Part shown: in pieces, positions 6,054-22,106 of the stretch | How positions within the stretch are numbered: the first letter of the stretch is position 1 | Layout: each line of letters starts with the position of its first letter | Source of the DNA: Stappia sp. 28M-7 | Lineage (GTDB): Bacteria; Pseudomonadota; Alphaproteobacteria; Rhizobiales; Stappiaceae | Length of the DNA: 64,000 bases | Direction: 5' to 3' | Assembly: GCF_014252955.1 (NCBI RefSeq) | Contig: NZ_JACMIA010000001.1 | Location: forward strand, 3,990,258-4,054,257 | Position numbers and translations under genes: made by a program | The notes under the pieces: generated by a model | Told to the model about the DNA's origin: nothing | Database searches by the model: none | What the model saw: the letters and a program-made list of their open reading frames with translations, nothing else

Positions 6054-6201
6054 CGCCAGACTTCGCGATGGATCCCGCGCTGGTTATCGCGCCTGAAATC
6101 CGAAGCGAGATCCATCCCTGCAGAATGGCTGTCACGCCCTGCTCCCCGCAGGGTGAACGGACAGCCTCGCCTTCCAAAACCGATAAAAAGGACACTTCCG
6201 C

Positions 6202-6990
6202 ATGACTGTAAAATTCGAGGAACAGACGCTCCTGGTGGGCGGTGTACCAACCCATGTCCAACACGTCGGACAAGGGCACCCGGTGATCTTTCTGCACGGC
6301 GCCTCCACTCTCGAGGGCTTCGACTTCGTTGACGGGCTTGCCGACCGCTTCAAGGTCATTTGTCCGCATCATCCAGGCATGGGACGGTCCGGGTCGGCGG
6401 ATCACGTTGCCGGCATGACCGACTTGGTGATCCATTACCTCGATCTGCTCGACACTCTCGATCTCGAGGTCCGGCCCCATCTTGTGGGCTTTTCCATGGG
6501 AGGCTGGCTTGCGGCGGAGCTCGCGGCCGTGGCGCGCGAGAAATTCGACCGCATCGTTCTGATAGCTCCAGCGGGATTGAACGACCCGGCGCATCCCATG
6601 ACCCCGATCCCCACCATTCCGCCGGCAGAACTTCCCGCGTACCTCTCGCATGATCCGGCGGTCGCAGCGCGGTACTTCCCCGACGGATCCGACCCGGACG
6701 CAGCTTCCGCCTTCGCTGCGGAACGTGCCCGCGAGGGCGATCTCGTCGGCAGGGTCGCTGCGCCCCTGGGCTTCGGCCACCCCAACCTTCGCAGGATGCT
6801 TGCACGCATCACATGTCCCGCCCTTGTCGTCTGGGGTAGCAAAGACCGCCTTCTGCCCGCCTCCCAGTTGCCGCTCTGGTGCGATGCGCTTCCTCATGCG
6901 CAGTCCCTGCTCGTGGAGGATGCCGGCCACCTCGTCGCGCATGAAAAGGCGGAAACCATGCGCCGTATCGGAGATTTTCTCGCACCGTGA
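6202..6990 (+). CDS. alpha/beta hydrolase (C-C bond hydrolase or esterase type)
   Basis: A complete 262-residue alpha/beta hydrolase. The oxyanion region is IFLHGASTLEGF, the nucleophile elbow is VGFSMGG with Ser98, the acid is in VWGSKDRLLP and the base in VEDAGHLVAHE. Size and arrangement fit meta-cleavage-product hydrolases and related esterases. The stop overlaps the start of the flavin reductase gene by four bases, so the two are translationally coupled. With the nearby oxygenase they suggest ring hydroxylation followed by hydrolytic cleavage, although no ring-cleavage dioxygenase is evident unless the cupin plays that part. Confidence 0.88.
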   Translation: MTVKFEEQTLLVGGVPTHVQHVGQGHPVIFLHGASTLEGFDFVDGLADRFKVICPHHPGMGRSGSADHVAGMTDLVIHYLDLLDTLDLEVRPHLVGFSMGGWLAAELAAVAREKFDRIVLIAPAGLNDPAHPMTPIPTIPPAELPAYLSHDPAVAARYFPDGSDPDAASAFAAERAREGDLVGRVAAPLGFGHPNLRRMLARITCPALVVWGSKDRLLPASQLPLWCDALPHAQSLLVEDAGHLVAHEKAETMRRIGDFLAP

Positions 6991-7577
6991 CCCAGCCGTC
7001 CTTCTCCCTCACACACCCCGCCGAAAGCGGACCGGCTCTCCTTTCGGCGGCATTCCGCAATGCGTTCCGCGGACATCCTGCGGGTGTCGCCATCGTGACC
7101 GCCGATCCGGGTTCTGGCCCCGTTGCGCTGACCGTAAGTTCCCTGATCTCGGTCAACGCAGAGCCGCCGATCGTCGCCTTTTCGGTCTCGGGCCGGTCGG
7201 GCTCCGGCGCAGCGCTGCTGAGCGCGGATACGGTCGTGGTACACTTGTTACGGTTCTCCAACCTCGATCTGGTCAAGACGGTCGCCGCTCCGGGAGCGGA
7301 CCGCTTCGGCCCGGAGATGGATTGGGAGCGGCTGGCCACCGGGGAGCCGCGCTACCGCGAGGTTCGAACCTGGTTCCGGGCACGTGTTCTGGGCCGGCTT
7401 ACCCTGGACGGGGCGACCCTGCTGGCCGCCGAACTTCTGGAAAGCGCGCCCACGGAAGAAGGCCATGCCTCGACCCAGGACACCCTTGTCTACATGGACC
7501 GACGCTGGCATCGCTTGCAGACCGATCCTGTACGCCTTTCCACGGTCGCAGCAGGAGCCGAGGACGCCTGGTTCTGA
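6987..7577 (+). CDS. flavin reductase family protein (reductase partner of a two-component monooxygenase)
   Basis: A 196-residue protein of the FMN-binding split-barrel flavin reductase family. The N-terminal part FRNAFRGHPAGVAIVTADPG and the following VALTVSSLISVNAEPPIVAF match the family pattern, as does the VVHLLRFSNLDLVKTVA segment. These enzymes use NAD(P)H to reduce free flavin, which diffuses to an oxygenase such as the one at 3869-5101. The start is GTG in a GTGA overlap with the hydrolase stop. The C-terminal 40 residues are less typical. Next downstream are insertion-sequence remnants, so this is the right edge of the pathway cluster. Confidence 0.82.
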   Translation: MTQPSFSLTHPAESGPALLSAAFRNAFRGHPAGVAIVTADPGSGPVALTVSSLISVNAEPPIVAFSVSGRSGSGAALLSADTVVVHLLRFSNLDLVKTVAAPGADRFGPEMDWERLATGEPRYREVRTWFRARVLGRLTLDGATLLAAELLESAPTEEGHASTQDTLVYMDRRWHRLQTDPVRLSTVAAGAEDAWF

Positions 7578-7654
7578 CCTCCAGGACGCGACGCAAGCCG
7601 ATCGTCCGACCGTGCCGCTCGCGATTGCGGCAGGACACCTTCCGCGCCGGGGCT

Positions 7655-7745
7655 GCCACACTTGCCTTCCACTTGTAGAAGGTCGCACTGCTGATGCCGT
7701 GCTTGCGACACAGATCCGCCCTCTGTTGCTCCGCCCCCTGAAAAA
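7655..7745 (-). pseudogene. fragment of an IS3-type transposase orfA
   Basis: On the minus strand this stretch reads ADLCRKHGISSATFYKWKA, the helix-turn-helix of IS3-family OrfA proteins. The similarity stops abruptly after that motif and there is no start or continuation. It is a broken end of one element, abutting a second element of opposite orientation. Confidence 0.7.
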
Positions 7746-8245
7746 TGGGTCGTTCGAAACTGGAGTTTTCCGCAGTAACATCCTTTGGCTGGTGAGAGTG
7801 GAAAACGATGAAAGCATCAAAGTTGCCTGACGCGCAGAAGAGGTCCGTTTCCCAGCGGGGAGACGACGGGATTTCTGTCGCGAAGATCTGCCGCTTTACG
7901 GGGGAAATCCAGGATAACTACTTCAAACGGAAGAAGAAATACTACGTCCTTCTGCCGACAGAGATGAAGCGCCTGAAGCATCTGGAGGACGAGAACGGCA
8001 ACCTGCGGAAGCTGGTCGCCGACCTGTCCCTCGACAAAGAGATGCTGCAGGACGTGATCTGCCGAAAACTGTGGGCCTGATCGCAAACGCGAGCTGGTGG
8101 CGCAGACAATGAGGTGGGTGGAACGCGTCGGTCCGGCGGGCCTGCCGGGTTCTGGAGTTCGACACGTCGAGCTATCACTGCAAGCCCCGTCGGCGCGTGA
8201 AGGCGAAGCTGCGGGACGATCGGCCACAAGGTGCCAACTGCCAAG
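7738..8245 (+). mobile_element. IS3-family insertion sequence remnant (orfA plus truncated orfB)
   Basis: The left part (from the CCCCCTGAAAAATGG stretch) looks like the terminal region of an IS3-group element. It is followed by an orfA-like frame at 7808-8080 (90 residues) starting MKASKLPDAQKRS and ending with the coiled-coil type LEDENGNLRKLVADLSLDKE and a DVICRKL terminus. The recognition-helix part has diverged. After the orfA stop come orfB pieces: RKRELVAQ, then, after a frameshift, RACRVLEFDTSSYHCKPRRR, then nothing further. The catalytic DDE domain and right end are gone, so the element cannot move by itself. Confidence 0.75.
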
Positions 8246-8255
8246 CCCGGCCGCT

Positions 8256-8909
8256 TCACTGCTTCACCGTCATGTCCCTCGCATGGGCGATAAGCTTTCC
8301 GCGGGAGTTGGCGCCTGCTTTTTGCAGAATGGCGGCAACATGCGTTTTGACAGTGCTTTCGGTCAGATCGAGATCCCGGGCAATCTCTTTGTTCGAAAGT
8401 CCGGCGACGATGAGCCTGTAAACGTCGGCCTGACGCTTCGTGAGGTCGAGCCGTTCCGGACGCGTCACCATCCTCGGACTGCATTCGGACGACGCGGCCT
8501 CACCATCGAACAGGACACGCGGGAAAAAGACCTCACCGGTCAGCAGCAACTCGACCACGTTAACGATCACCCGGGGATCGGCGGTCTTAGGAATGAACCC
8601 GTCGACCCCTTCGGCGCGCGCGCGGTTGACGGTCTCACGGTCCTCCTCGCCCGAAATCAGCGCAATCGACATCGCCGGATCCGCCTGCTTTAGGCGGGTG
8701 AACCCTTGAAAACCGTTCGAATCCGGCAGCTTGAGATCGAGTAGCACAAGGTCGAAGGGCCTGGAAACCTCCAGTTCATGCAATGCCTCCGCAACGGACG
8801 CTGCTGCGACGACCGAAGCGCCGTCGATTTCGAGTTCCAGCAAGGCCTTCATGCCCGAGCGAATAACCGAGTGATCGTCGACGATGAGTATCTTGACCAT
8901 AGCATCCAA
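8256..8909 (-). CDS. NarL/FixJ-type response regulator (receiver plus LuxR helix-turn-helix)
   Basis: A 217-residue two-domain regulator. The receiver (residues 1-120) has the acidic pair DD at 11-12, the phosphoacceptor Asp58 in LVLLDLKLPD and the Lys in GFIPKTAD. The C-terminal domain has LDLTKRQADVYRLIVAGLSN followed by KEIARDLDLTESTVKTHVAA. It is the last gene of a leftward run that begins with the ABC-transporter binding protein at 16159, lying 21 bases after sdaA. The only kinase gene in the neighbourhood is the hybrid kinase at 18506-20671 on the opposite arm, which is the likely partner (inference). Confidence 0.92.
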   Translation of the reverse strand: MDAMVKILIVDDHSVIRSGMKALLELEIDGASVVAAASVAEALHELEVSRPFDLVLLDLKLPDSNGFQGFTRLKQADPAMSIALISGEEDRETVNRARAEGVDGFIPKTADPRVIVNVVELLLTGEVFFPRVLFDGEAASSECSPRMVTRPERLDLTKRQADVYRLIVAGLSNKEIARDLDLTESTVKTHVAAILQKAGANSRGKLIAHARDMTVKQ

Positions 8910-8930
8910 TCCGCCCGGCCAAGGGCGCTG

Positions 8931-10301
8931 TCAACATCCCGTGACGAAGAGGGCCAATCCGCCCTGCGAGGTCTCCTTATAGCGCTCATGCATATCGTTA
9001 CCAATGTTCCGCATCGCCTCGATGCAGGCGTCCAGCGGCACGATATGGTCGCCGTCTCCCTTCAGTGCGAGGCGCGCTGCGGCAACCGCCTTGATCGCGC
9101 CGAGACCGTTGCGCTCGATGCAGGGAACCTGAACGAGCCCCATCACCGGATCGCAGGCGAGCCCCAGATGATGCTCAAGCGCGATCTCGGCGGCATTCTC
9201 GACCTGCCTCGGAGTTCCACCGCAAACGGCAGCGTAGCCGGCAGCAGCCATGGCCGCCGCGCTCCCAACCTCGGCCTGGCATCCAAGGTCAGCGCCGCTC
9301 ACCGACGCGTTCCGCTTGATGATCGCTCCGATCGCGGCCGCCGTGAGCAGATAGTCGCGCCCGAGGGAATGGCGCTCCGAAGGCGTCTCGTCCAGCCAGA
9401 AGCGCAGCACGGCAGGCACGATCCCGGCTGCACCGTTGGTCGGTGCGGTCACCACCCGGCCCCCCCTGGCATTCTCTTCGTTGACCGCCAGTGCGTAGGC
9501 GAGCAAGCGGTCCTGTGCCCGGAAGGGCGCGGCCTCGTCGTCTTCCAGAGCCTTGAAGAGCGCCTGTGCGCGGCTACGGACCTGCAACCCTCCAGGCAGA
9601 ATGCCCGCGCCGGCGGCACCGCGCGAAATGCAGGCCATCATCTCGTCGCGGATGCGATCCAGGCCACCCGGGATATCCCGGTCGCGATGCAGGGCCCGTT
9701 CGTTCCTGTACATCACGTCCGAAATCCCAACGCCCAGCTCCGAACAGATGTTCAGCAATTGGGCACTGTTCCCGAACGGTAGTGGAACGTCGCATCGCGC
9801 ATCCGTCACCGAACCGCCCCGCAAGTCCGGTCCGTCTTCCTCGGCAACGATGCTTCCTCCACCGATCGAGACATAGGAGCGGGAAAGAACCGCGGCGCCG
9901 TCCTGTGTCACTGCCTCGAATGTCAGCGTGTTGGGATGCCAGCGCGGCCTTGTAACGGTGTCGAACACGACCCCGGCCCCGGGATCGATGTCGAAAACTC
10001 CCACCTGGGGATGAGCGCCGCGCCCACCGGCCGATATGTCGCGCCAGATTCCTTCCGCGATCGAATGATCGAAATCTTCCGGCGTCAGGCCGCAAAGCCC
10101 CCAAACGGCCGCCTTGTCGGACGCGTGTCCGCGCCCGGTGAAGGCGAGCGAACCGAGAAGGGTGACCCGGATGATAGGGGCGTGGACATCCCGCTCCGCA
10201 AGTTCGGCGGCAAAACGGTTGGCCGCGATCATGGGGCCCATTGTGTGAGACGACGAGGGTCCGATCCCGATCTTGAAGATGTCGAAAACCGAGATGTACA
10301 T
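8931..10301 (-). CDS. sdaA: L-serine dehydratase (L-serine ammonia-lyase), single-chain iron-sulfur type
   Basis: A 456-residue single-chain L-serine deaminase, converting L-serine to pyruvate and ammonia in the cytoplasm with a [4Fe-4S] cluster. The start [20 protein letters not shown] is diagnostic, and the three conserved Cys are seen in [15 protein letters not shown] and VPCIERNG. The C-terminal alpha domain also has the [20 protein letters not shown] segment. ATG at 10301 overlaps the stop of the Na/Pi gene by one base (TGATG); a GTG three bases earlier is possible. This coupling of serine deamination to a phosphate transporter, inside an amino-acid transport operon, is unusual. Confidence 0.96.
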
Positions 10302-11923
10302 CACAGGCTCACTTTCGATGCCGCATGAATGTGATAGAAAATCCGTGTAAAATCCCGAAGAAGATCGCCGTGCAGTGCTGACGTCGTGACAGAGGACGGG
10401 TTCTTGTTGCTGAGGCGGCGAAAGTGCTCCTGCCAGCTCGCCTCGACCAGCCGGTCAAGCTCTTTCCTCTGCCGGTTTATGTTCTTCTTGATCTGCGTAT
10501 CCCCCTGCAGGGCCGCGACCAGCGTCAGCCGGAGACCTTGCTGGATGATGTCGAGCAACGACAGGAGCTCTCTCTTTCCCTCTTCGGAAAAGCGGGCCTG
10601 GTCCCGGATGCGTGCCTCGCACAGGACCATCGCATTCAAGACGAGCTCGGAGACGTGCCTCATGTTCGCCGACAAGAGCATGATGTTCATCGCGCGATTG
10701 CTGTCGTCTTCCGAGATCTCACCACGCGTGACTTCGCTCAGATAGAATTTGAGAGAGTCCAGCGTCGAGGAAATCTTCGCGTGGTTCTGCTTCGCCACGG
10801 CAACGCCGGCAAGATCGTCGGTCCTGATCGCCGCCGTCAGCGCCAACAGCGAGTCGTCGATCTGGTCGGGAATCCGGTTCAGTTCGCGCGATGCACTGGC
10901 GAGAGCCAGGGACGGGGAATCGAGCAAGCCTCGGTCGAGATAGCGCGTGGCCGGTCCGTCTTCCGGTTGAACGGTGTCCGGGATCAGTCTCTCGAACAGC
11001 CGCGCAAAGACGCCGACCCAGGGAAGGAACAAGAGGGCGACGACGACGTTGAGGCCGGTGTGGAAATTCACCAGCGCGCCCGCCGTGTCCATGTAGTGCG
11101 CGAAAGCGTCCTTCAGGACATCCAGGAACGGAACCGCCAGCAGGCAAACGCTCAGCTTGAACGCGGCGTTACCGATGGCGACGCGCCGTCCCGCGACGCT
11201 TGCGTTCAACGTCGCGATGATCGGGGGAACCGTCCCGCCGATATTGGCGCCAAGCACCATCAGCATTCCCATTTCGACGGGGACGACATCGGCGACAAAC
11301 AGCGATGTCGTCAGCAGGACTACAGCCAGGCTCGAATGCACGAGCCAGGTCAACACGGCGACAATGAACAGGGTCAACAGCGGCTCGTTCCCGAGCGTCG
11401 TCAGCATCTGGACCAGCAGGGCGGAGTCACGCAAGGGTGCGGACGAGACCCGGACCAGCGACAGCGCCAGCAGCACCAGCCCCAGTCCTAGCAGGCAGCG
11501 GCCGATCTGGCGCCTGACATGATCGGTGCATTGGGAATGCGCGAAGAAGCCGACGAAAACCAGGACATAGGACGCAACCGACAGGTCGAAGGACAGGATC
11601 TGTGCAGCGATCGACGTCCCGACATCCGCGCCGAGCATGACCGCCAGGGCGGCGGGGGCCGCGATCATCCCCTTTGCCGCAAGCGATGCGATGATCATCG
11701 CGGTGGCGGTGCTGCTCTGGACCAGAACGGTTATGAGCGCACCGACACCGAAGGACATGAACCGGTTGCCGGTGACCTCCGCCAGGGCATGACGAAGCGA
11801 TGCGCCGAAAGCCCGCAGGATGCCGGTTCGGATCAGGCGAATGCCCCAAAGCATGAGGGCCACCGAACCGACGATCTGAACGAGAATTGCAGTGCTGGAA
11901 ATCGAAGTGCCCTCCAGTGACAT
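10301..11923 (-). CDS. Na/Pi cotransporter family protein with C-terminal PhoU-like domain (YjbB-type)
   Basis: A 540-residue protein. The N-terminal half (about residues 10-310) holds the two inverted Na/Pi repeats: GALITVLVQSSTATAMIIAS and MLGADVGTSIAAQ in the first, LTWLVHSSLAVVLLTTSLF and MLMVLGANIGGTVPPI in the second. The C-terminal 190 residues are helical and PhoU-like. Bacterial members with this layout (YjbB type) are linked to phosphate export or sodium-coupled phosphate movement. It lies 60 bases after the ABC ATPase gene and its stop overlaps sdaA. In this context export of phosphate released by the SerB-like phosphatase is a plausible role (inference). Confidence 0.92.
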   Translation of the reverse strand: MSLEGTSISSTAILVQIVGSVALMLWGIRLIRTGILRAFGASLRHALAEVTGNRFMSFGVGALITVLVQSSTATAMIIASLAAKGMIAAPAALAVMLGADVGTSIAAQILSFDLSVASYVLVFVGFFAHSQCTDHVRRQIGRCLLGLGLVLLALSLVRVSSAPLRDSALLVQMLTTLGNEPLLTLFIVAVLTWLVHSSLAVVLLTTSLFVADVVPVEMGMLMVLGANIGGTVPPIIATLNASVAGRRVAIGNAAFKLSVCLLAVPFLDVLKDAFAHYMDTAGALVNFHTGLNVVVALLFLPWVGVFARLFERLIPDTVQPEDGPATRYLDRGLLDSPSLALASASRELNRIPDQIDDSLLALTAAIRTDDLAGVAVAKQNHAKISSTLDSLKFYLSEVTRGEISEDDSNRAMNIMLLSANMRHVSELVLNAMVLCEARIRDQARFSEEGKRELLSLLDIIQQGLRLTLVAALQGDTQIKKNINRQRKELDRLVEASWQEHFRRLSNKNPSSVTTSALHGDLLRDFTRIFYHIHAASKVSL

Positions 11924-11983
11924 CCGGACCGCCCACGACAGTGCCCCCGCCTGAGCGGTGCGCCGTTCGGACCGGTCGGGCGA

Positions 11984-12754
11984 TTAGTGGGACAGGATCT
12001 GGCTCAGGAACTTTCGGGTTCTGTCGATCTTCGGATCGTCGAAGAAGAGATCGGGCGTGTTTTCCTCGACGATCTCGCCGCCATCCATGAAAATGACGCG
12101 ATCCGCCACCGAGCGGGCGAAGGACATCTCGTGGGTGACGCAGATCATCGTCATCCCGGTCTCCGCCAGCTCGATCATCACGTCCAGAACCTCCTTGATC
12201 ATCTCGGGATCAAGCGCCGAGGTCGGCTCGTCGAACAGCATCACGGACGGGCTCATGCACAACGACCGGGCAATCGCGACACGCTGCTGCTGGCCACCGG
12301 AGAGTTGCCCCGGATACTTGTCCCTCTGCTCCGAAATCCCCACCCGCTCGAGATACATGCAGGCGGTTGCCTCCGCCTCCTTGCGGGGCATGTTGCGAGC
12401 CCAGACAGGCGCAAAACAGAGATTGTCCAGGATCGTCATGTGCGGAAACAGGTTGAACTGCTGGAACACCATCCCGACTTCGCGGCGAATGCTCGTGATG
12501 TTCTTCAGCTTGTCGTCCAGCACCGTCCCGTTGACGGTGATCGTTCCTTCCTGATGTTCTTCCAAATGGTTGATGCAACGGATCAGCGTGGACTTGCCCG
12601 ATCCGGACGGTCCGCAGATCACGATCCGCTCGCCCTTCTTCACCGAGAGCGACACGTCCTTGAGAACGTGAAAACTGCCGTACCACTTGTTCACCCGCTG
12701 CATTTCGATGACGGGCGCATCTTCGGTGATCTGGCTGTCGATCCTGATGGTCAT
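11984..12754 (-). CDS. aapP: amino-acid ABC transporter ATP-binding protein (AapP type)
   Basis: A 256-residue polar-amino-acid ABC ATPase. Walker A is [10 protein letters not shown], the signature is [15 protein letters not shown], Walker B is [14 protein letters not shown], and the H-loop His is in [17 protein letters not shown]. The length equals rhizobial AapP. ATG at 12754 is chosen because AGGAGG lies five bases upstream; codons further upstream in frame lack a site. It powers the permease pair encoded just before it. The aap name is given at family level; the real substrate may differ from that of the Rhizobium general transporter. Confidence 0.94.
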
Positions 12755-12776
12755 GGATACCTCCTGGGAATGCTGC

Positions 12777-13892
12777 TCAGCGACGGGCGCCGCCGGCCCC
12801 GCGGGTTTCGAGCGCGCGGCCATACAAGCTTAGGTTGTAGCAAATCAGCCAGTACACAAAGGCTGCGAAGACATAGGCTTCCGTCTGGAAACCGAGCCAT
12901 TCGGGATCGAAAGCCGCGTTCTTGATCATGCCGAGGAAGTCGAGCAGCCCGACGATGATCACAAGCGACGTGTCCTTGAACAGGGCGATGCAACGCCCGA
13001 TCAAAGGAGGAAGGACATGTCGCAGGGCCTGCGGCACGACGACGAACGCGACGGTGCGGGCCGGCGAAACGCCAAGAGCCAGGGACGCCTCGGTCTGCCC
13101 TTTCGGAATGGCCTGCAGTCCGCCCCGGACCACCTCGGCCATATAGGCTGCCGAGAAGAGGATCATGCCGATCTGGATACGCATCAGGTTGTTGATGACC
13201 ATTTCCGGCGGCATGAACATCGGCAACATCACCGAGGCCATGAAGAGGATCGTGATCAGAGGAACGCCGCGGACAAGCTCGATGAAACCAACGCACAGCG
13301 CCTTGATCAGCGGAGAGCCGTAGTAACGCCCGAGCGCCAGAAGAACGCCGAGCGGAATGGAGACGATCACGCCCACGAGCGCCAGCAGGATGCTCAGCAT
13401 CAGCCCGCCCCAGAGCGACTGCTCCACTTCCACCATACCGAATGCGCCGCCGATCATGACCAGGGCGAAAAGCGGCAGCACCAGCCAGGAAAGGATCAGC
13501 ATGGGGCCGTTCAGGCGGTTCGTGTAGGTCAACCACGCCAGAACCACGAGCGCCAGGCCGGCCAGACCGGGCCGCCAGATCAACTCCTGCGGATAGACAC
13601 CGACCATCAGCACGGGAAGCTTGTCGACGATGAACGGCCAGCAGGCTCCCGCGCTCTGCCGGCACGTTTCCGCGTCTCCGGCGAAGGTCGCGTCAAGCAG
13701 CAGCCAACCGGAAACGGCCGGCAGCAACCAAAGCACCAACCCGATCAGGACAAGCGAGATAGTGCTGTTGAACCATCCCCCGAACAGATTTGCCTGCAGC
13801 CACCTGATGGCACCCGTGTTGTTTCCGGGCGCGGGCCGCGCGGCGAGCGGCCGAAAGGTTTCAGCGGATGTCGAATGCATTGCATAGGCCAT
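12777..13892 (-). CDS. aapM: amino-acid ABC transporter permease (AapM type)
   Basis: A 371-residue inner-membrane permease of the His/Glu/Gln/Arg family with the long N-terminal extension seen in AapM. The cytoplasmic EAA loop reads [20 protein letters not shown] followed by the [22 protein letters not shown] stretch (first twenty of these match the family pattern best). Several transmembrane segments are evident. It starts three bases after the stop of the other permease, so the two are almost certainly co-translated as a heterodimer. Confidence 0.93.
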
Positions 13893-13895
13893 ACT

Positions 13896-15068
13896 TCACC
13901 TTTCGACGATCTGGACGCGGGAGTTCAAAAAGTTCATTGCAACCGAGATCAGAAGGTTGATCGTCAGGTAGACTGCCATCCACATCGCGATGATCTCGAT
14001 GGCCTGTCCGTTCTGGCCGATGATCGTTCCGCCGATCGACACCATGTCGGGAAAGCCGATGGCCACTGCGAGCGAGCTGTTCTTGACGAGGCTCGCATAG
14101 TCGTTGGTGGTTGCTGGAATGGTCACCCTGAGGGCCTGGGGCAGCATGATCAGGCGCGTCACGATCCCGCTCGAAACGCCCAAGGCATTGGCTGCTTCGA
14201 TCTGGCCCGGATGCACGGAGGCGATGCCGCTGCGCACGTTCTCGCCGATATAGGCGGCGGTGTAGAGGACCAGGCCGGTCACGAGCGACACGAACTCGGG
14301 CTTGAGCGTCAGTCCTCCGGCGAAGTTGAGCCCGCGATAGGCGGGTACCTCGACCCCCACAGGGGAGCCGCTTGCAAAGAAGGCCAGGGTCGTGATCGCT
14401 GTGAAAAGGGCCAGACCGCCGAGAAAGCCGGGGACGGACCTTCCGGTCGTTCTCTTGTGGTTGCGGGCCCAGATCCAGAAACTTGCGGCCATCGCTGCGG
14501 CAATCACCGTTGCGAGCAGGAAGATCTGAAAGCCGTCCTCGACGACAGGACGCGGAACGAAAACGCCGCGCTTGGTCAGATATACCCCGTCCATCGGCGA
14601 AATCGGGTCTCGGGGATGCGGCAAGGATCCGATGACCACCGTGTAGACGAATATCAAGGTCAGCAACAAAGGAATGTTTCGTAGCGCCTCGACATAGATC
14701 GCCGCCATTTTCGCCAGCAGCCAGTTCGACGAGACGCGCGCAACGCCGATCAGTATTCCAAGTATCGTACTCAGAATGATCGCAATGGCGGAAACGAGCA
14801 GCGTATTGAGAATGCCAACCAGAAACGCGTAACCGTAGCTCCGTGTCGGATCGTACTCGATCAGGCTGTCGCCGATCGGCAGGCCGGCCTCATGACCGAG
14901 GAAAGCAAATCCGCTCTCGATACCGCGGTCCTGCAGGTTTGCCTGGGTGTTCTGGAAAAGAACATATACGCCGCTTAGGACAAGTCCGAGCACGGCAGCC
15001 TGAACCAGGACGGCTCCCATGCTCTGCCCGCCCCACGCGGTCGATCTGGTCTTGGATTTGAAGGACAT
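13896..15068 (-). CDS. aapQ: amino-acid ABC transporter permease (AapQ type)
   Basis: A 390-residue permease. The EAA region includes YIGENVRSGIASVHPGQIEA followed by NALGVSSGIVTRL and the VTIPATTNDYASLVKNSSLA stretch, the AapQ pattern. ATG at 15068 is preferred, with GGAAG five bases upstream; a second in-frame ATG lies 12 bases earlier. It follows the binding-protein gene by 80 bases and precedes aapM by three. A periplasmic insert between helices, beginning around residue 95, is typical of this subgroup. Confidence 0.93.
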   Translation of the reverse strand: MSFKSKTRSTAWGGQSMGAVLVQAAVLGLVLSGVYVLFQNTQANLQDRGIESGFAFLGHEAGLPIGDSLIEYDPTRSYGYAFLVGILNTLLVSAIAIILSTILGILIGVARVSSNWLLAKMAAIYVEALRNIPLLLTLIFVYTVVIGSLPHPRDPISPMDGVYLTKRGVFVPRPVVEDGFQIFLLATVIAAAMAASFWIWARNHKRTTGRSVPGFLGGLALFTAITTLAFFASGSPVGVEVPAYRGLNFAGGLTLKPEFVSLVTGLVLYTAAYIGENVRSGIASVHPGQIEAANALGVSSGIVTRLIMLPQALRVTIPATTNDYASLVKNSSLAVAIGFPDMVSIGGTIIGQNGQAIEIIAMWMAVYLTINLLISVAMNFLNSRVQIVER

Positions 15069-15148
15069 CACAACTTCCATCGGAGTGGGCCAGGCTGGAC
15101 AAAGCACGTCCAAGGACATGCTTTGTCCGTGATCACGTCCTGCTGCGC

Positions 15149-16159
15149 CTAGCGGATCGGCATGGCGTACATCAGCCCGCCATCCTTCCATTGGGCGTTC
15201 AGGCCGCGCTCGAGGCCGAGCGGCCTGGTCAGGTTGCGATCAAAGATTTCGCCGTAGTTGCCGACCGCCGCGATCGCGTCCTTCATCCATGTGGCGCCAA
15301 GACCGACGAAGTTGCCGGAGTCGACCGAACTGCCGAGCAGGCGCTGGACGTCTGGATTCGCGGAATTCGCCGCCATGTCATCGACGTTGGCGGAGGTGAT
15401 CCCGAGCTCTTCCGCCGCAATCAGGCCGTAGATCGTCCAGGACACGATGTCCTTCCAGTTGTTGTCGCCATGGGCGACGAGCGGGGCCAGCGGCTCCTTG
15501 GAGATCAGGTTCGGCAGGATGGTGTGGGCACTCGGATTGGAAAAGCTAATGCGGAACGAGGCCAGTTGGCTTGCATCGGTGGTGAGGGCGTCGCACCGGT
15601 CGGTCATATAGGCCTCGACCGCTTCCCGCTTGCCGTCGAACACGACCGCCTCGACCTGAATATTCTGGGCGCGCGCGAAGTCGGCCAGATTCAGCTCGGT
15701 CGTCGTCCCCGTCGTCACGCAGACCGTTCCGCCATCCAGCTCCTTCGCCGAGGTGATGCCCGACTCGGCGCGAACCATGAAACCCTGGCCGTCGAAGAAG
15801 ATGACCTGGGTGAAGTCGACCCCCTCGGCACCGTCGCGCTTCATCGTCCACGTGGTGGTACGGGAGGTCATCTCAACCTGCCCGCTCGAAACCGCGAGGA
15901 CCTTCTGCTTGGAGGACAACGGAACGAAACGGACCGCGCCGGCATCGCCGAGAACGGCGGCGGCAACGGCACGGCAGATGTCGGCGTCGAGACCTTCCCA
16001 CCTGCCCTCGGAGTTCGGGTTCGAGAAGCCCGGAACACCCTCGCTGACACCGCATGCCAGCACGCCGGCGCTGCGCACCTTCTCAAGTGTACCGGCCTGA
16101 GCCATGCCGGCAGACGCAGCAACGGCAAGCGCCGCCAAAGTCGTAATCCTGATTTTCAT
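15149..16159 (-). CDS. aapJ: amino-acid ABC transporter substrate-binding protein (AapJ type)
   Basis: A 336-residue periplasmic binding protein of the SBP_bac_3 family. A Sec signal peptide (TTLAALAVAASAGMAQA) is followed by the usual VRSAGVLACGVSEGVPGFS and GRWEGLDADICRAVAAAVLG. The C-terminal AVGNYGEIFDRNL and GLERGLNAQWKDGGLMYA are the AapJ/BztA hallmark. ATG at 16159 follows GGAGGAG. It is the first gene of a seven-gene leftward run ending at the response regulator. A paralogue of identical length lies on the opposite arm at 17486. Differences from AapJ in the binding cleft cannot be judged by eye, so the ligand is open. Confidence 0.93.
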   Translation of the reverse strand: MKIRITTLAALAVAASAGMAQAGTLEKVRSAGVLACGVSEGVPGFSNPNSEGRWEGLDADICRAVAAAVLGDAGAVRFVPLSSKQKVLAVSSGQVEMTSRTTTWTMKRDGAEGVDFTQVIFFDGQGFMVRAESGITSAKELDGGTVCVTTGTTTELNLADFARAQNIQVEAVVFDGKREAVEAYMTDRCDALTTDASQLASFRISFSNPSAHTILPNLISKEPLAPLVAHGDNNWKDIVSWTIYGLIAAEELGITSANVDDMAANSANPDVQRLLGSSVDSGNFVGLGATWMKDAIAAVGNYGEIFDRNLTRPLGLERGLNAQWKDGGLMYAMPIR

Positions 16160-16595
16160 TTCTTTCTCCTCCACTTGACTTCCATTCAAAAAGAAAAAAT
16201 CGGCAACCTTCCCGTATAGACAGTCAGACTTCGCGATTTTTCTCTCGCCTTGATTGAAAACCTTAGTGATGGCGACGCCGTTCGGGATATCCGCCGTCAG
16301 ACCGAGCCTCGGCAGATACCGGCCCGGACCCGGCGCCGGGCTCGGCCCACGGGACTAGTCCTTTCGAGGGATGGGAGATTTTCTGGTTTTGAAATCAATG
16401 AGCTGACAGGGGGTTGGCGAACACCTGCCGCCTCCGCCCCTCGGCCGTCATGCCGAATGGAACACGGTGCGACATTGATACAAGCTGCCGGTGAGGCAGC
16501 GCATTCCACCGACACGGCCCGCATTGAACCACGCGACTTGCCACACGAGGCCGTCCGGCGCGAACTCGCAACCGCCCAGAACCGAGGGATCAACT
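16160..16595. other. divergent control region between the two arms of the cassette (436 bases)
   Basis: No credible gene lies here. It separates the leftward transporter operon from the rightward phosphatase-binding protein-kinase operon, so both promoters and the response-regulator site should be inside it. The part nearest aapJ is AT-richer (around 16180-16260). I could not assign a convincing -35/-10 pair or a known riboswitch. Confidence 0.5.
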
Positions 16596-17468
16596 GTGTC
16601 GATAAATCTGGTTGCTGTCGGAAACCCGGCAGGGGGTGTATCAGCGTTCGAAGGCATCGGAGCCATCACTGGAACGCATCAGTTCGAATGGCTTTCGGCC
16701 GGGCGTGCCGCCCTGTACCGGACCGGGAGACCGCTGGACGCGACCTGCATCGAGAAGGCCAGGAACCTTGCCTTGTCCGCGGAAATCGATCTCTTCGTCA
16801 CACGCAAGCCGATCGAGAAGAAGGCGGTGCTCGTCGCCGACATGGAGGCGACGATCATCCTGGATGAAATGCTGGACCTGTTGGCCGAGGAACTGGACCT
16901 TGGCGACGCGGTCGCCAACATCACCAGCCTGGCCATGAACGGCAAGATCGACTTCGGCCGATCGCTTGCGGCCAGAACGGCACTGTTCGCCGGAACGCCC
17001 GAAAGCCTGCTGGAGAGGCTTTGCGAGCGGATGCGTTTCACCCCGGGCGCGCAACGTCTGGTCACAAGCATGAAGAACGCGGGAGCACGGACCGTTCTCG
17101 TCACCGGAGGCTATGACATGTTTGCCGAGAAGGTCAGGGATGCCTGTGGCTTCGACGAGGTCGTCGCCAACAGGCCGGAGGTCCGGGACGGCATGCTGAC
17201 CGGCCAGCTTCTCCCACCGATCTGCACAGCCGCCACCAAGCGCGAGGTTCTGGAAAGGACCTGCAGCGCTCTCGGCCTCCCGGCCGAGAGCGCCTGTGCC
17301 GTCGGCGATGGCGCCAATGACATGGAAATGCTGAAAATCGCCGGCCTCCCGGCGAGCTACCGTGGTAAACCGGTGCTGCGCGACCTGGCGGACTTCAACA
17401 TCGTCCATGGCGACCTGACCGCACTGCTCTTCGCGCAAGGTTATCGCGAAAGCGAAATCTCCAACTAG
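16596..17468 (+). CDS. serB: SerB-like phosphoserine phosphatase (HAD family)
   Basis: A 290-residue HAD phosphatase with SerB architecture: a small N-terminal domain (about residues 1-75) and the HAD core. Motif I is VADMEATI with nucleophile Asp82; the second acidic residue is Glu84 where DxD phosphatases have Asp. Motif II Thr is in VLVTGGYDMF, the Lys of motif III is in TAATKREVLE, and motif IV is AVGDGANDMEML. It should hydrolyse O-phosphoserine to serine and phosphate. GTG at 16596 is chosen from GAGGGA upstream and family length. It is unlikely to be the biosynthetic copy only, because it sits with serine deaminase, a phosphate transporter and amino-acid uptake genes. Confidence 0.88.
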   Translation: MSINLVAVGNPAGGVSAFEGIGAITGTHQFEWLSAGRAALYRTGRPLDATCIEKARNLALSAEIDLFVTRKPIEKKAVLVADMEATIILDEMLDLLAEELDLGDAVANITSLAMNGKIDFGRSLAARTALFAGTPESLLERLCERMRFTPGAQRLVTSMKNAGARTVLVTGGYDMFAEKVRDACGFDEVVANRPEVRDGMLTGQLLPPICTAATKREVLERTCSALGLPAESACAVGDGANDMEMLKIAGLPASYRGKPVLRDLADFNIVHGDLTALLFAQGYRESEISN

Positions 17469-17485
17469 GCGTGAGAACCGGGATC

Positions 17486-18496
17486 ATGGCCTTTTCTCTT
17501 CGACACAGTCTCGGAGCCGCATTGGTTCTTCTCGCGCTGGCGCCGCAATGCCTGTCGGCACAACCGGGCGAGACCCTTAGGCAAGTGAGGGATCGCGGCT
17601 ACCTAATCTGCGGCGTTGGCGTCGGCGACATCGGCTTTGCAACACAGCAGACCGACGGAAGCTGGGCGGGATTCGATGTCGACTTCTGCCGGGCGGTCGC
17701 GACGGCGACGCTTGCGGATGCAAACGCCGTCGAGTTCGTTCCGCTGGACAGCCTGAACCGGCTCAGCGCGCTGCAGAACGGCGATATCGATGTCCTGTTC
17801 CGCACAACGACCTTCAATATGGAGCGCGACGTCTCCCTCGGGTTCGAGTTCCCGGCAATCACCTATTTCGATGAACAGCGTGTTCTCGCCCATGCGAGCA
17901 CCAGGGCGAGGACACTGGACGATCTCGCCGGGCGCGTCATTTGCGCGAATGCGGGCACGACGAGCATCCGCAACATCAGGGAGGCGCTCGCTTCGCGGCA
18001 GATCGAGGCCGAAATACTGGAAATCTCGTCCCAGGCCGGGCGTTGGCGCGCCTTTTTCGGGCAGGAATGCGCCGCCGTGACGGGCGACGGCAGCGACCTC
18101 AACATCATGCGCGCCATGCACGGCCTGGATGAAAGCGCCCTGGTCGTGCTGGAGGACATCCTCGCGAACGAACCCTTGAGCGCGGTCGTGCGGGAAGGCG
18201 ACCAGCAATGGGAACAGGTCATTCGCTGGGTCGTCAATCTCCTCATCCTGGCGGAAGCCGAGGGCATCGGCAGGGCAAACGCCCTCGACGCGGGGTCCGA
18301 CCTGAAGGTTCCGGCCTACCCTCGCCTCGGCCTGACCGAAGGCTGGGCCCACAGGACGATCTCTGCTGTCGGGAACTATGGGGAGATTTTCGAACGCAAC
18401 CTGGGCTCGGGCAGCGACTTCGGACTGGAGCGCGGGCTGAACAGGCTCTGGCGCGAGGGCGGACTGATGTACGCCCTCCCGATGAAAAACCGGTAG
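17486..18496 (+). CDS. periplasmic amino-acid-binding protein paralogue, probable sensor partner of the kinase
   Basis: A 336-residue SBP_bac_3 protein with signal peptide (ALVLLALAPQCLSA). It aligns end to end with the AapJ-type protein at 15149-16159: VRDRGYLICGVGVGDIGF, SWAGFDVDFCRAVATATLAD, RTTTFNMERD, AVGNYGEIFERNL and LWREGGLMYALPM. It is not next to permease genes; it precedes the hybrid histidine kinase by 9 bases. ATG at 17486 follows CGGGA; a GTG 15 bases earlier is possible. A binding protein paired with a kinase recalls TorT-TorS, so this copy may report ligand to the kinase, or share the permeases across the gap. Confidence 0.9.
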   Translation: MAFSLRHSLGAALVLLALAPQCLSAQPGETLRQVRDRGYLICGVGVGDIGFATQQTDGSWAGFDVDFCRAVATATLADANAVEFVPLDSLNRLSALQNGDIDVLFRTTTFNMERDVSLGFEFPAITYFDEQRVLAHASTRARTLDDLAGRVICANAGTTSIRNIREALASRQIEAEILEISSQAGRWRAFFGQECAAVTGDGSDLNIMRAMHGLDESALVVLEDILANEPLSAVVREGDQQWEQVIRWVVNLLILAEAEGIGRANALDAGSDLKVPAYPRLGLTEGWAHRTISAVGNYGEIFERNLGSGSDFGLERGLNRLWREGGLMYALPMKNR

Positions 18497-18505
18497 GCCG
18501 CCCAT

Positions 18506-20671
18506 ATGCGGCAGTCGCAGATCGGCATCGGCAAGATTGTCTTTCTGTCCTTGCTGTTCATGTCTCTGGGGACGTTGGCGATCGGCTTCATCGCCGTTTT
18601 TGGCATTCGCTCCTACAGCCACGAGTTCGATCGGCTCGTCGCGATCGACCTGCCGCGCGCCGATGTCTCGATCAAGATGAATGGCGCCATCTCCGGGTTG
18701 AGCAGCCAGGCCGTCGAACTGGCGCTGGCAGATTCGGAAAGCGCTTTCGGCACGGTTCGCATCCAGATCGACGACCAGATCCAGGCAATCGACCGCCTGA
18801 GACAGCAGGTCCGCAACCTCGGCCTGATGGAAACGGACTTTTCGAGGATCGACGACTGGCTCACAGACCTTACGGACAATCTCGTCGTCCTGACCGGCCT
18901 GATCGCCCAGCGCATCGATGTGGAGAGGGCGCGTGCCGACCTGGCGAGCCGAGCGAGCCGGTCCAGCGTCCCTTCCGGCCTGCAAAAGAAATACCTTCTG
19001 TTCCTCCGGGATTTGAAAGAAGCAAGCCTGCCTGTCGACTTCGCGCGGCTTGACGCCGCGTTCGACCGGATGGCTCGTGCGGGACTTCCGCGAGGGCCCC
19101 GGTCGCTGGTCGCCCGCCTCATTGTCACGGGCCGCGAGAAAACACGTGTCGAGAAATCGATCCAGGGCCGGCTGAGCCGTCATGCGCAACTGTCTTCGCT
19201 CCTCACCGATGCGACCCGGCTGAGTTCCGCAACACTCAACGAAAGCGCGAACGCACGCAGCGCCCTTATTCGGGAAAAGATGCGCGTCAGCGCCTACCTG
19301 ATCCTTGTCGGCTTCCTGGTCTTCGCATCCATCGCAATCTCGATCTTCTTCTATCTCGACCGCAACGTAGTCGCCCGCATCCAGCGCCTGACGCGCCAGG
19401 TGGACAAGTATGTCGGGGAAGGCAGCAAGGCCGGTCCGAAAGAGCGGCTCAACGAAATCTCCATGATCGAGACGTCATTCGAGACGCTGCGCAACACGAT
19501 AGACGAGCGCGAGGCCCGGCTTGTCGCTCTGAACGTCGCAGCGACGGAGGCGCGCGCGGAGGCCGAGGAGGCCAACCGCTCGAAGTCTGAGCTTCTGGCG
19601 GCGGCAAGCCACGACCTGCGCCAGCCGATCCATGCGATGGGCCTGCTGCTTGGTGGCATCGACCGCGACCGGATCGACGGCACCGACCGCGACACCATCG
19701 ATCGGCTCGCGTCCCTGACGCGGGAAACGAGCCAGATGTTCAACTCGATCCTCGACTTGTCCAAGCTGGAGGTCGGCACCTTCGCGGCGACCAGTGCTCC
19801 TGTCGATGTCGACGACCTGTTCCGGCGAATGGAGTTGGAGTTCGCGCCCCGCGCCGCTTCGGCCAGGACCCGGGTGCATATCCGCCGGCCGCCGCCCGAC
19901 ACGTTCGTGCTCGGAGATGCCGAGGCGATCTACCGCATTCTGAGCAACTTGCTGGTCAACGCACTCGACTACGGGCGCGAGGGCACGATTTCGGTCGGTT
20001 GCGGCCGGGCGGAAGACGGCGCATTCACCTTTTTCGTCGCAGACCAAGGCCCGGGACTGTCCGTTGCTCCTTCGCCAGACGCAGCCCCCTCGACAGATCA
20101 GTCGGTGCGGCACTACGGGCTGGGGCTGTCAATCTGTTTCGCCCTGACGAAAGCCATGAAGACGGAACTGCTGCATAGCCAACTTGAACAGGGGGGCACC
20201 GAGTTCCGCTTCCGGCTGCCTGCGGCAGAGATGCCGGCCCGCATGTGCGCCTCACTCGCCGCCATGCCGAACAACGAACTGAAAAGGCGAAACCTGATCC
20301 TGCTTGAGGACGATGCAGACGTTCATTCCGCAACCAGGGACCTGCTCGGGCGCCTGGGTAGCACCGTGACGGCCTGCCGTTCCGTCCGCGAGGCCCGGCA
20401 GGCAGTGGCACGCCAGGACGCGCCCTTCCTGCTCGTGACGGATTTCGACCTCGGCCGGGGCAACACCACCGAGGAACTCGTCAAGAACACCCTGGAGAGA
20501 GCGGAGCACCTCCAGGGCATCATCGTGACCACGGCGGATCCGGGCCGCCTCCCGGCGACTTGGCACGACGAACCTGCCATTCACATGCTGGAAAAGCCTT
20601 TCACGATCAATCGGCTGGCAAGCCTCATACGCTTTGTCACACGCCAGGCGGACCGGAAGTCGCCGACGTAG
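18506..20671 (+). CDS. hybrid histidine kinase with periplasmic sensor region and C-terminal receiver
   Basis: A 721-residue kinase. A transmembrane segment at about 10-35, a helical periplasmic region of about 230 residues, and a second transmembrane segment near 265-285 are followed by HAMP and coiled coil. The dimerisation motif AAASHDLRQPIHAMG has His369; the ATPase domain has ILSNLLVNALDYG, DQGPGL and GLGLSICFAL. A receiver follows with phosphoacceptor Asp646 in LVTDFDLG and Lys in LEKPFT. The helical periplasmic part resembles TorS-type sensors that dock a binding protein. It likely signals to the NarL-type regulator at 8256-8909; no Hpt protein is visible. Confidence 0.92.
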   Translation: MRQSQIGIGKIVFLSLLFMSLGTLAIGFIAVFGIRSYSHEFDRLVAIDLPRADVSIKMNGAISGLSSQAVELALADSESAFGTVRIQIDDQIQAIDRLRQQVRNLGLMETDFSRIDDWLTDLTDNLVVLTGLIAQRIDVERARADLASRASRSSVPSGLQKKYLLFLRDLKEASLPVDFARLDAAFDRMARAGLPRGPRSLVARLIVTGREKTRVEKSIQGRLSRHAQLSSLLTDATRLSSATLNESANARSALIREKMRVSAYLILVGFLVFASIAISIFFYLDRNVVARIQRLTRQVDKYVGEGSKAGPKERLNEISMIETSFETLRNTIDEREARLVALNVAATEARAEAEEANRSKSELLAAASHDLRQPIHAMGLLLGGIDRDRIDGTDRDTIDRLASLTRETSQMFNSILDLSKLEVGTFAATSAPVDVDDLFRRMELEFAPRAASARTRVHIRRPPPDTFVLGDAEAIYRILSNLLVNALDYGREGTISVGCGRAEDGAFTFFVADQGPGLSVAPSPDAAPSTDQSVRHYGLGLSICFALTKAMKTELLHSQLEQGGTEFRFRLPAAEMPARMCASLAAMPNNELKRRNLILLEDDADVHSATRDLLGRLGSTVTACRSVREARQAVARQDAPFLLVTDFDLGRGNTTEELVKNTLERAEHLQGIIVTTADPGRLPATWHDEPAIHMLEKPFTINRLASLIRFVTRQADRKSPT

Positions 20672-21167
20672 CGTCTCGAAACGCAGGCGGACGGAAGTCG
20701 GTAGCGGGCGCCCCGATTGCGATCCCATACGCGCCGTACACAGACCACTCGCGCCAGACGAGAGCTCAAGACCGACGACGACCGCTACTGTCACCTGTTG
20801 ACGGCAACCGACCAGGCTTCACGCATGATCCTGGCCTGCAAAGCCCTTGAATCGATGAACGAGTAGCCGGTCATCGAAACCTTCCTGCACCTGTTCAGGG
20901 CGCACTCGTCCCTGGGAAACCAGACGCCGCTCGAAACGAGCCGGATGCTTGAACAATTTGAGCGCTCCGCGCCCGGCACGCTTGCCCAGAACGACCGGCA
21001 AGAATACCGATCTCCAACCCACAGACTCTCGTTATCAATGAGGGACGATCGGGGGGCGGGCACATACTGACGTGCTCCCCGGACTTTGGATCGCCCCGAA
21101 CCGGAACTTCCGGGCGGGCCTTCGTTGTAGTGTCCACGCCGACCCTTCAGCTTTTCGCGGACTTTTC
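20672..21167 (+). mobile_element. IS481-like transposase remnant and non-coding debris
   Basis: Within this 496-base gap the plus strand from about 20745 to 21010 reads, with an internal stop, DRYCHLLTATDQASRMILAC KALESMNE (split here for length) and then ETFLHLFRAHSSLGNQTPLE. The first piece resembles the catalytic-core entry of IS481-family transposases, the second their C-terminal region, with the middle deleted. No start, intact DDE triad or terminal repeats are seen. The rest of the gap shows nothing recognisable. Confidence 0.55.
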
Positions 21168-21971
21168 ATGCAACTCGATTTTCTGCACCTCGACACGATC
21201 TACAAGCTCTGGGACGACCTTGCCGCCTTCGACGCCGTGGATATCCACGCGTCTCGCAGGTTCCTGCTGCAGGAGATCTGTACCCTGGTGGATGCGCAGA
21301 ACGCGGACTGGATCGGCTGCGTACGTCTGAACTGGAGCCAGAGCGGCGATCCGATGAAAGGGTGGAGGCCGCGCACCCTCTTCACACTGCACCCTTGCAA
21401 GGTCAGCAGCGAGGCAATCGACCAGGCCTTTGCGGAGATGGAGAACGGCGAGCCGGACATCACCACGACGCGCAATGTGGAACTGGCCGGCACTTTCAGG
21501 GTCCTGCTGCTGAGCGAGCTGGCCACGCCGGACTGGTTCGAGGGGCCGTCCTATCGGCGCTACTACAAAGCACTGGACCGACGCGATTCCATCTGGGCCG
21601 GGATTCCCGTCAGCGCCGATGCGGAACTGCAGATCGGATTCCATCGCAGCTTCGAAAAGGAGCCGTTCTCCCTGGAAGATCAAGCCACGATCTTCCATGC
21701 GCTGCGCGGGATTAGCTGGTTCTACAAGCACCAGATGCTGGGCGAAGGAGCTGGCGTCGCCTCGACCCCGCTCACCCCCACGGAACAGCTCGTCCTGCAG
21801 GGCCTGTTGCTCGGCCGCACGGAAAAACAGATCGCCGAGCAAAACAACCAGAGCCCGCATACCACGCACGACCACGTGAAGCGGATCTTCCGCAAGTACG
21901 GGGTCTCCAGCCGCTCCAGCCTGATGGCCCTGTGGCTGGGCAAGGGTCTGAAAACGAACAAGAACCCCTAA
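21168..21971 (+). CDS. LuxR-family transcriptional regulator, orphan
   Basis: A 267-residue protein. The C-terminal helix-turn-helix (about 200-258) reads LTPTEQLVLQGLLLGRTEKQ then IAEQNNQSPHTTHDHVKRIF, LuxR type. The first 190 residues lack a receiver Asp pocket and look like a GAF/autoinducer-like sensing domain with several conserved Trp (WIGCVRLNW, WFEGPSYRRYY). ATG at 21168 is chosen because the protein begins sensibly at MQLDFLHLDTIYKLW; the site upstream is weak. It lies 135 bases before the autotransporter gene and may control it. The related regulator at 5298 belongs to the same broad class but is not a close copy. Confidence 0.85.
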   Translation: MQLDFLHLDTIYKLWDDLAAFDAVDIHASRRFLLQEICTLVDAQNADWIGCVRLNWSQSGDPMKGWRPRTLFTLHPCKVSSEAIDQAFAEMENGEPDITTTRNVELAGTFRVLLLSELATPDWFEGPSYRRYYKALDRRDSIWAGIPVSADAELQIGFHRSFEKEPFSLEDQATIFHALRGISWFYKHQMLGEGAGVASTPLTPTEQLVLQGLLLGRTEKQIAEQNNQSPHTTHDHVKRIFRKYGVSSRSSLMALWLGKGLKTNKNP

Positions 21972-22106
21972 ACAGGGGATTCACCCCATCGCCTCTCCCG
22001 CGCAAAAAGACGGTTGCTGACACAACCTGCGCTGCGGGAGAGCTGCGCCGGCTGCCGAAATGCGGCGGCGGTGCCCGGTCGCCTGACGGTGCGCCGAGGG
22101 GGATCC

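Follow-up and report, generated by a model that had tools for sequence, protein, structure and literature searches.

A recurring gene cassette in Stappia sp. 28M-7 and other Alphaproteobacteria, probably for the uptake and breakdown of phosphoserine

Gene Content of the Locus

A 64-kb stretch of DNA from Stappia sp. 28M-7 (the window throughout this text) carries a cassette of ten genes in two divergent runs, in which a polar amino acid transporter, a sodium/phosphate (Na/Pi) transporter, a SerB-like phosphatase, an L-serine dehydratase and a set of regulatory proteins are brought together. This content suggests a role in the use of an external phosphorylated amino acid, most likely O-phospho-L-serine. 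The ten genes and their two runs had been proposed in a first-pass annotation, and all of them have been recovered as open reading frames in the places and on the strands it had assigned, with Pfam or NCBIfam matches backing each assignment. The host genome measures 5.1 Mb on 11 contigs, and the G+C content is 62.2% in the cassette, 64.0% in the left flank and 67.1% in the right flank.

The leftward run, on the minus strand, opens with AapJ1 (15149–16159; PF00497, 47 bits; 4z9n, E 2.3e-99), the periplasmic binding protein of the transporter. Its start has been placed at the ATG at 16159, which is preceded by the ribosome-binding site GGAGGAG; the reading frame as first listed spans 15149–16189. 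Two ATP-binding cassette (ABC) permeases of the BPD_transp_1 kind follow, namely AapQ (13896–15068; PF00528, 51 bits; TIGR01726, 49 bits against a cut-off of 42) and AapM (12777–13892; PF00528, 65 bits; TIGR01726, 63 bits against the same cut-off). Inspection of the start region puts the beginning of AapQ at the ATG at 15068 or 15080, the longest reading frame extending to 15191. The polar amino acid ABC ATPase, of the AapP type (11984–12823; PF00005, 139 bits), has GlnQ as its best NCBIfam match at 314 bits, below the cut-off of 379. A PF00497 binding protein, two HEQRo-type permeases above the TIGR01726 cut-off and an ATPase in one gene run constitute the make-up of an AapJQMP-type transporter. 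Beyond it lie a 540-residue Na/Pi transporter of the YjbB/NptA superfamily (10301–11923; PF02690, 143 bits against 29; NF037997, 131 bits against 50) and, overlapping it by 4 bp, a one-piece iron–sulfur L-serine dehydratase (L-serine ammonia-lyase) of the SdaA type (8931–10304; TIGR00720, 527 bits against 345). The run ends with a NarL/FixJ-type response regulator (8256–8909), comprising a receiver (PF00072, 84 bits) and a LuxR-type helix-turn-helix domain (PF00196, 60 bits).

The rightward run, on the plus strand, begins with the SerB-like phosphoserine phosphatase of the HAD type (16596–17468), which has DMEAT as its motif I and scores about 180 bits (179–180) with TIGR00338 against a cut-off of 144. 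Comparison with relatives, including that of Stappia sp. MMSF_3263, indicates that its start is probably the GTG at 16596 (290 residues), the reading frame reaching back to 16491. After a gap of 2 bp comes AapJ2 (17471–18496; PF00497, 44 bits; 4z9n, E 1.7e-66), a second binding protein and possible co-sensor, and after a further 9 bp a hybrid histidine kinase (18506–20671). The kinase consists of a membrane-flanked helical sensor (approximately residues 33–265), HisKA (PF00512, 39 bits) and HATPase (PF02518, 57 bits) domains and a C-terminal receiver, the latter scoring 24.3 bits, under the Pfam cut-off of 30.2. A palindrome, GGACTAGTCC, lies between the two runs at 16352–16361.

The Cassette as a Recurring Unit

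Positions 8296–20652 of the window align to an 18-kb locus of Stappia sp. MMSF_3263 with 78.3% nucleotide identity over 12,427 bases, and on either side the alignment stops at most 40 bp from the distal end of the outermost gene. Apart from a short AapJ cross-match within the cassette, no other match at E 1e-10 has been found between window and locus, the compared flanks being unshared. A scan of named genomes, in which an alignment of the Na/Pi protein served as query together with two short exact peptide patterns, yielded six loci: Stappia sp. MMSF_3263, Yoonia ponticola, uncultured Rhodobacteraceae 3-187-3Z, Aliiroseovarius crassostreae CV919-312, uncultured Rhodobacteraceae 970 and a Celeribacter metagenome-assembled genome. 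With the window, this amounts to seven cassettes, distributed over the Hyphomicrobiales (Stappia) and the Rhodobacterales. All seven share a layout in which kinase, AapJ2 and, where present, SerB diverge from AapJ1, AapQ, AapM, AapP and the Na/Pi gene, and all seven also carry the response regulator. The conserved synteny for which the first-pass annotation had proposed a search holds throughout for AapJQMP, the Na/Pi protein (the search query), the regulator, AapJ2 and the kinase; as for the enzymes, SerB is present in six cassettes and a full dehydratase in only three, with a remnant in two more. Since the same order recurs in six other cassettes, some of them without SerB or the dehydratase, and since the same-genus alignment ends at the outer genes, the arrangement is not a matter of chance. 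Pairwise distances of nine cassette proteins (the dehydratase left out) correlate at 0.84–0.98, as would be expected of genes inherited together; shared ancestry by itself also pushes such correlations up. The ten genes form a discrete unit.

The unit is patchily spread. In six genomes, a profile of AapJ2 gave 602–647 bits for cassette members against at most 280 for other AapJ proteins. A close AapJ2 homologue occurs in two of 14 genomes of the window's genus (its own included), and the profile recovered one of 21 genomes in the genus of A. crassostreae (itself) and two of 56 in that of Yoonia, both among the known cassettes. With at most five candidates scored per genome, a family sample for Yoonia gave one carrier in 394 genomes (Yoonia itself) and a sample across the class gave one in 385 (that of the window). 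One cassette-bearing genome of Yoonia's genus is absent from the carriers in the family sample, having either not been drawn or been overlooked, and the ways in which the profile and peptide-pattern scans were limited mean that further cassettes may exist. In the plasmid collection, no record reached 60% identity to AapJ2 (261 records) or to the cassette SerB (48 records).

A tree of 42 SerB sequences, none of them dropped, bears on how the cassette has travelled. The cassette copies of the two Stappia genomes group with those of two Yoonia-type cassettes (support 93/77, a node that is not starred), while the housekeeping copies separate the Stappia pair from the five genomes of Rhodobacterales (100/98 and 100/99); the bootstrap of this tree had not settled. 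Given this grouping, the scattered occurrence of the unit and the lack of common sequence in the flanks compared, the cassette has probably been transferred between orders, a scenario that is favoured and not proven.

The Phosphatase, the Dehydratase and the Na/Pi Protein

Another SerB above the family cut-off is encoded in each of the seven cassette-bearing genomes (in that of the window at C1:3421146, C1 being a contig), so the cassette SerB, present in six of the seven cassettes, is an additional copy. The six cassette proteins are united in a single clade (100/100), whose stem measures 1.09 changes per site, and the seven housekeeping proteins of the same genomes form a separate one (100/99). 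HAD motifs I–III read DMEAT, TGGY and GDGAND in all six. The DxE of motif I was considered as a cassette signature and rejected, as 15 of the 36 non-cassette rows of the tree, these 15 being alphaproteobacterial and lying in several branches, also have it in place of DxD. The cassette proteins keep a Glu and an Arg that line up by eye with E20 and R56 of the Methanocaldococcus jannaschii SerB, which are taken here, in role and numbering, to hold the serine moiety. Family score and motifs together predict a phosphoserine phosphatase role for this dedicated extra copy. Inspection by eye revealed no leader peptide, and without one the phosphorylated substrate would have to enter the cell intact for SerB to act on it.

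A full dehydratase is present in the cassettes of the window, MMSF_3263 and isolate 970, in the last of which it lies behind the regulator. In Yoonia and 3-187-3Z there is a remnant in which both ends of the enzyme are kept and the middle is gone, located at about 11605–11811 (plus strand) of the two loci between the Na/Pi gene and the regulator, and in the two other cassettes no dehydratase has been seen. Each of the seven genomes encodes another dehydratase above the family cut-off (in that of the window at C1:731197).

The genome of the window holds a second Na/Pi gene elsewhere, with 37% identity. Non-cassette relatives of the Na/Pi protein (up to 39% identity) were collected from 397 genomes of the order at E ≤1e-60, resulting in 30 loci with about 1.5 kb on each side; one was the window's own, and at the other 29 no other cassette gene was found, three of them showing weak ATPase matches (33–39%) near the Na/Pi gene. 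In isolate 970, a second Na/Pi gene lies beside the cassette (locus 15508–18629, minus strand), along with a 488-residue protein in which a Cof-type HAD hydrolase match is fused to a methyltransferase match. YjbB has been described as promoting phosphate export (PMC11389368).

Binding Proteins and Sensing

AapJ1 and AapJ2 share 38% identity, and 4z9n is the closest solved sequence to each; AapJ1 has 41–55% identity with 28 further proteins of the AapJ type from the order. These 28 proteins are the best AapJ2 matches, one per genome, of more than 290 residues without stops, and do not represent a random set. They were aligned with the seven AapJ1 and seven AapJ2 sequences and with Escherichia coli GlnH and GltI (from NC_000913), and columns were sought that are invariant and identical in the 14 cassette proteins and present in fewer than 40% of the others. 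Five columns were obtained, two of which correspond to positions 50 and 68 of GlnBP, presumably ligand positions, as are those of GltI; they were mapped by alignment. A literature search for the pocket residues of GltI brought up papers that are unrelated, judging by their titles. All seven AapJ1 and all seven AapJ2 proteins have Ser at position 50 and Thr at position 68, so that AapJ1 departs at both from the residues usual in AapJ, which are Ala (18 of the 28 proteins) and Asn (25 of the 28). Both positions are Ser in GltI, whose ligands are glutamate and aspartate. Because the two cassette proteins share these substitutions toward a GltI-like polar pocket, the alignment suggests that they read the same ligand, one with a small polar or acidic side chain; proof of phosphate binding it is not. 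Two other AapJ paralogues, one with both residues and the other encoded at C1:2903097 in the genome of the window, lie in a genomic context that offers no clue to a ligand. A predicted structure of AapJ2 was not used, its mean predicted local distance difference test score (pLDDT) being 47. In another genome of the order, two genes for PF00497-type binding proteins (5891–6946 and 10692–11714) flank three reading frames of permease or ATPase size, and this locus (5891–11714, minus strand) may offer a further example of binding proteins in pairs.

The AapJ2 gene lies directly before the kinase gene in all seven cassettes. An AlphaFold model of kinase residues 1–320, built from seven sequences, is all-helical, with a pLDDT of 82 and a predicted TM-score of 0.59. 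In a Foldseek comparison with the PDB, sensor domains of TorS take the first two ranks (E 1.8e-3 and 4.8e-3, probability 1.00), and the first of them, 3i9y, superposes with a TM-score of 0.65 by target and 0.48 by query. TorS–TorT complexes also occur in the list, as do F-BAR domains, helical bundles being prone to draw weak matches. The match to TorS thus lends support short of proof. With AapJ2 immediately preceding the kinase in every cassette, the simplest reading is that the two proteins may belong to a three-component sensor like that of TorT and TorS, with a putative contact between them.

A Palindrome in the Divergent Promoter Region

The palindrome between the divergent genes, GGACTAGTCC, contains the sole ACTAGT of the window. 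The form NGACTAGTCC occurs at the corresponding place in four of the seven cassettes, and 3-187-3Z differs from it by one further mismatch, as judged by eye. When the window is set beside Yoonia, Aliiroseovarius, isolate 970 and Celeribacter, the best shared 12-mer carries 6 mismatches altogether; the best 12-mers of five shuffles, which preserve base content only, carry 10–12. The pattern AANGACTAGTCC is found once in the genome of the window and once in that of A. crassostreae, both times in this region, and twice in Yoonia, where one copy lies here; it is absent from the genome of isolate 970, where the site deviates from the pattern by a single base. The palindrome is a possible operator of the response regulator. 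Five papers contain the palindrome string, and judging by their titles none of them deals with this regulator.

Proposed Function and Alternatives

The cassette is read here as an accessory system, probably passed horizontally, for the use of an external phosphorylated amino acid, most likely O-phospho-L-serine, which would be imported intact and dephosphorylated inside the cell, the resulting serine being deaminated. A probability of roughly 0.56 is attached to this reading. AapJ1 would bind phosphoserine in the periplasm and AapQMP would import it unaltered, after which the cytoplasmic SerB-like phosphatase would convert it to serine and phosphate. The cassette dehydratase, or the other one of the genome, would turn serine into pyruvate and ammonia, and the Na/Pi protein would move the surplus phosphate, probably out of the cell. 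Working much as TorT does with TorS, AapJ2 would present the transporter's ligand to the kinase's periplasmic domain through a putative contact, and the kinase would signal to the NarL-type regulator, which may act at the palindrome between the divergent operons. The main case for phosphoserine is that SerB, in which no leader is visible by eye, would need a phosphate-bearing substrate inside the cell and is accompanied by the dehydratase and the Na/Pi protein. A broader picture, held at somewhat less than even odds, is that of a horizontally moving nutrient system for O-phosphoserine that combines intact uptake, dephosphorylation, deamination and phosphate efflux with a three-component sensor reading the transporter's ligand, by means of which marine bacteria could live on proteins rich in phosphoserine that bivalves, barnacles and tube worms make.

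Uptake followed by catabolism had already been put forward in the first-pass annotation, and it is partly supported by the conserved synteny, the dedicated SerB with no leader visible by eye and the pocket changes common to both binding proteins. A number of observations weigh against it. The weakest point is the Celeribacter cassette, which is without SerB and would fit if the other SerB of that genome suffices. Four of the seven cassettes have no full dehydratase, a loss that is compatible with the phosphoserine reading because each genome has another copy. The length of the stem leading to the cassette SerBs may leave room for a shifted substrate, and the presence of the Na/Pi protein in all seven cassettes is a matter of ascertainment, given that it was the search query. 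Among the 28 other AapJ proteins, Ser is found in three and Thr in two, two proteins having both; AapJ1 also has an invariant Glu in a loop near the pocket, and a Lys at a site that is Arg in GltI and in every one of the 28. No fold match of the sensor reaches E 0.001, and the second TorS domain, 3i9w, superposes badly (TM-score 0.34 by target, root mean square deviation 35.5). As for the palindrome, two matches with at most one mismatch occur in the window, and shuffles give a mean of 0.83 with 23 of 100 reaching two. The MMSF_3263 copy is three mismatches off by eye, and the Celeribacter divergent region has no convincing copy. A reversed-pattern control gave counts of 0, 2, 1 and 6, which those of AANGACTAGTCC in the four genomes do not exceed; the count of this pattern is not unusual, its place is.

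Some of these points would suit other explanations. The cassette could serve the uptake of acidic or general amino acids (glutamate, aspartate, serine), with SerB and the Na/Pi protein present for phosphate balance or by chance capture. Such a role would agree with the closeness of AapJ1 to broad AapJ-type proteins (4z9n and the 28 others), with the likeness of its substituted pocket to that of GltI and with the absence of SerB or the dehydratase from some cassettes; it is considered rather unlikely, as SerB has been kept in six of seven cassettes as one clade despite another SerB in each genome, and the pocket substitutions common to both binding proteins are unlike most other AapJ proteins. 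There is a slimmer chance that the cassette scavenges phosphorus, with an organophosphate taken up as a phosphate source and additional import of phosphate by the Na/Pi protein. Na/Pi proteins are able to import as well as export, and the dehydratase is optional, but the unit comes with a binding protein, kinase and regulator of its own, no clear Pho box is visible by eye in the divergent-region sequences, and a carbon/nitrogen enzyme is found in three of seven cassettes with a remnant in two more. Equally improbable is that the true substrate is some other phospho-amino acid, such as phosphothreonine, phosphohomoserine, D-phosphoserine or a phosphodipeptide. The long stem of the SerB clade and the differences of the pocket from other AapJ proteins would allow for this, whereas the dehydratase family acts on L-serine, and the residues aligned with the presumed serine-moiety binders have been kept.

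Neighbouring Genes

To the right of the cassette, outside the stretch shared with MMSF_3263, a LuxR-type regulator in which only the helix-turn-helix is recognised (21072–21971, plus strand; GerE, 38 bits) separates it from an autotransporter of 1639 residues (22014–26933, plus strand), with a beta-domain match of 184 bits and a PATR repeat match under the cut-off.

Significance and Comparison with Known Systems

Phosphoserine is abundant in some marine animal proteins: variants of Pc-3 from the sandcastle worm are reported to contain 60–90 mol % phosphoserine (PMC9783952), and a phosphoserine-rich phosphoprotein has been described in clam plasma (PMC6530089). The cassette may be linked to marine adhesive and mineralising proteins of this kind. 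If the phosphoserine reading is true, the cassette would serve as a genetic marker for marine phosphoserine flux, SerB would be seen acting catabolically and not in biosynthesis, and the two binding proteins would be a clear example of duplicates divided between transport and sensing. Among the papers listed by searches of an open-access library, judged by titles and abstract openings, none described a bacterial system for phosphoserine uptake or catabolism, nor this combination of genes, a second binding protein with a TorS-like kinase, or SerB in such a cassette.

The general L-amino acid ABC transporter AapJQMP of Rhizobiales has the same four-component architecture; the cassette differs from it by two substitutions at ligand positions, by a phosphatase and regulators within the unit and by a second binding protein. 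Its SerB shares with the enzyme of serine biosynthesis the HAD motifs and a TIGR00338 score over the cut-off, and is set apart as an extra copy in a transport setting, in a separate clade with a long stem and with DMEAT as motif I. Like YjbB, the cassette protein is of the Na/Pi kind, but it sits in a substrate-specific unit. In TorT/TorS/TorR, as in the cassette, a gene for a periplasmic binding protein stands beside that of a hybrid kinase; the predicted sensor of the cassette kinase is nearest to TorS, with no match at E 0.001. The cassette binding protein, however, is of the amino acid type (PF00497), its kinase has no Hpt domain by Pfam, and its regulator is of the NarL type, unlike the OmpR-type TorR. 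A precedent for a second binding protein and a kinase acting on an uptake operon is CuaD/CuaS/CuaR of Ruminiclostridium cellulolyticum, a tested case in which a second solute-binding protein takes part in the three-component control of an operon for ABC uptake and catabolism (PMC10384115). Its ligand is cellobiose, compared to the phospho-amino acid proposed here. Every part of the cassette belongs to a known family, and it is the combination that appears new.

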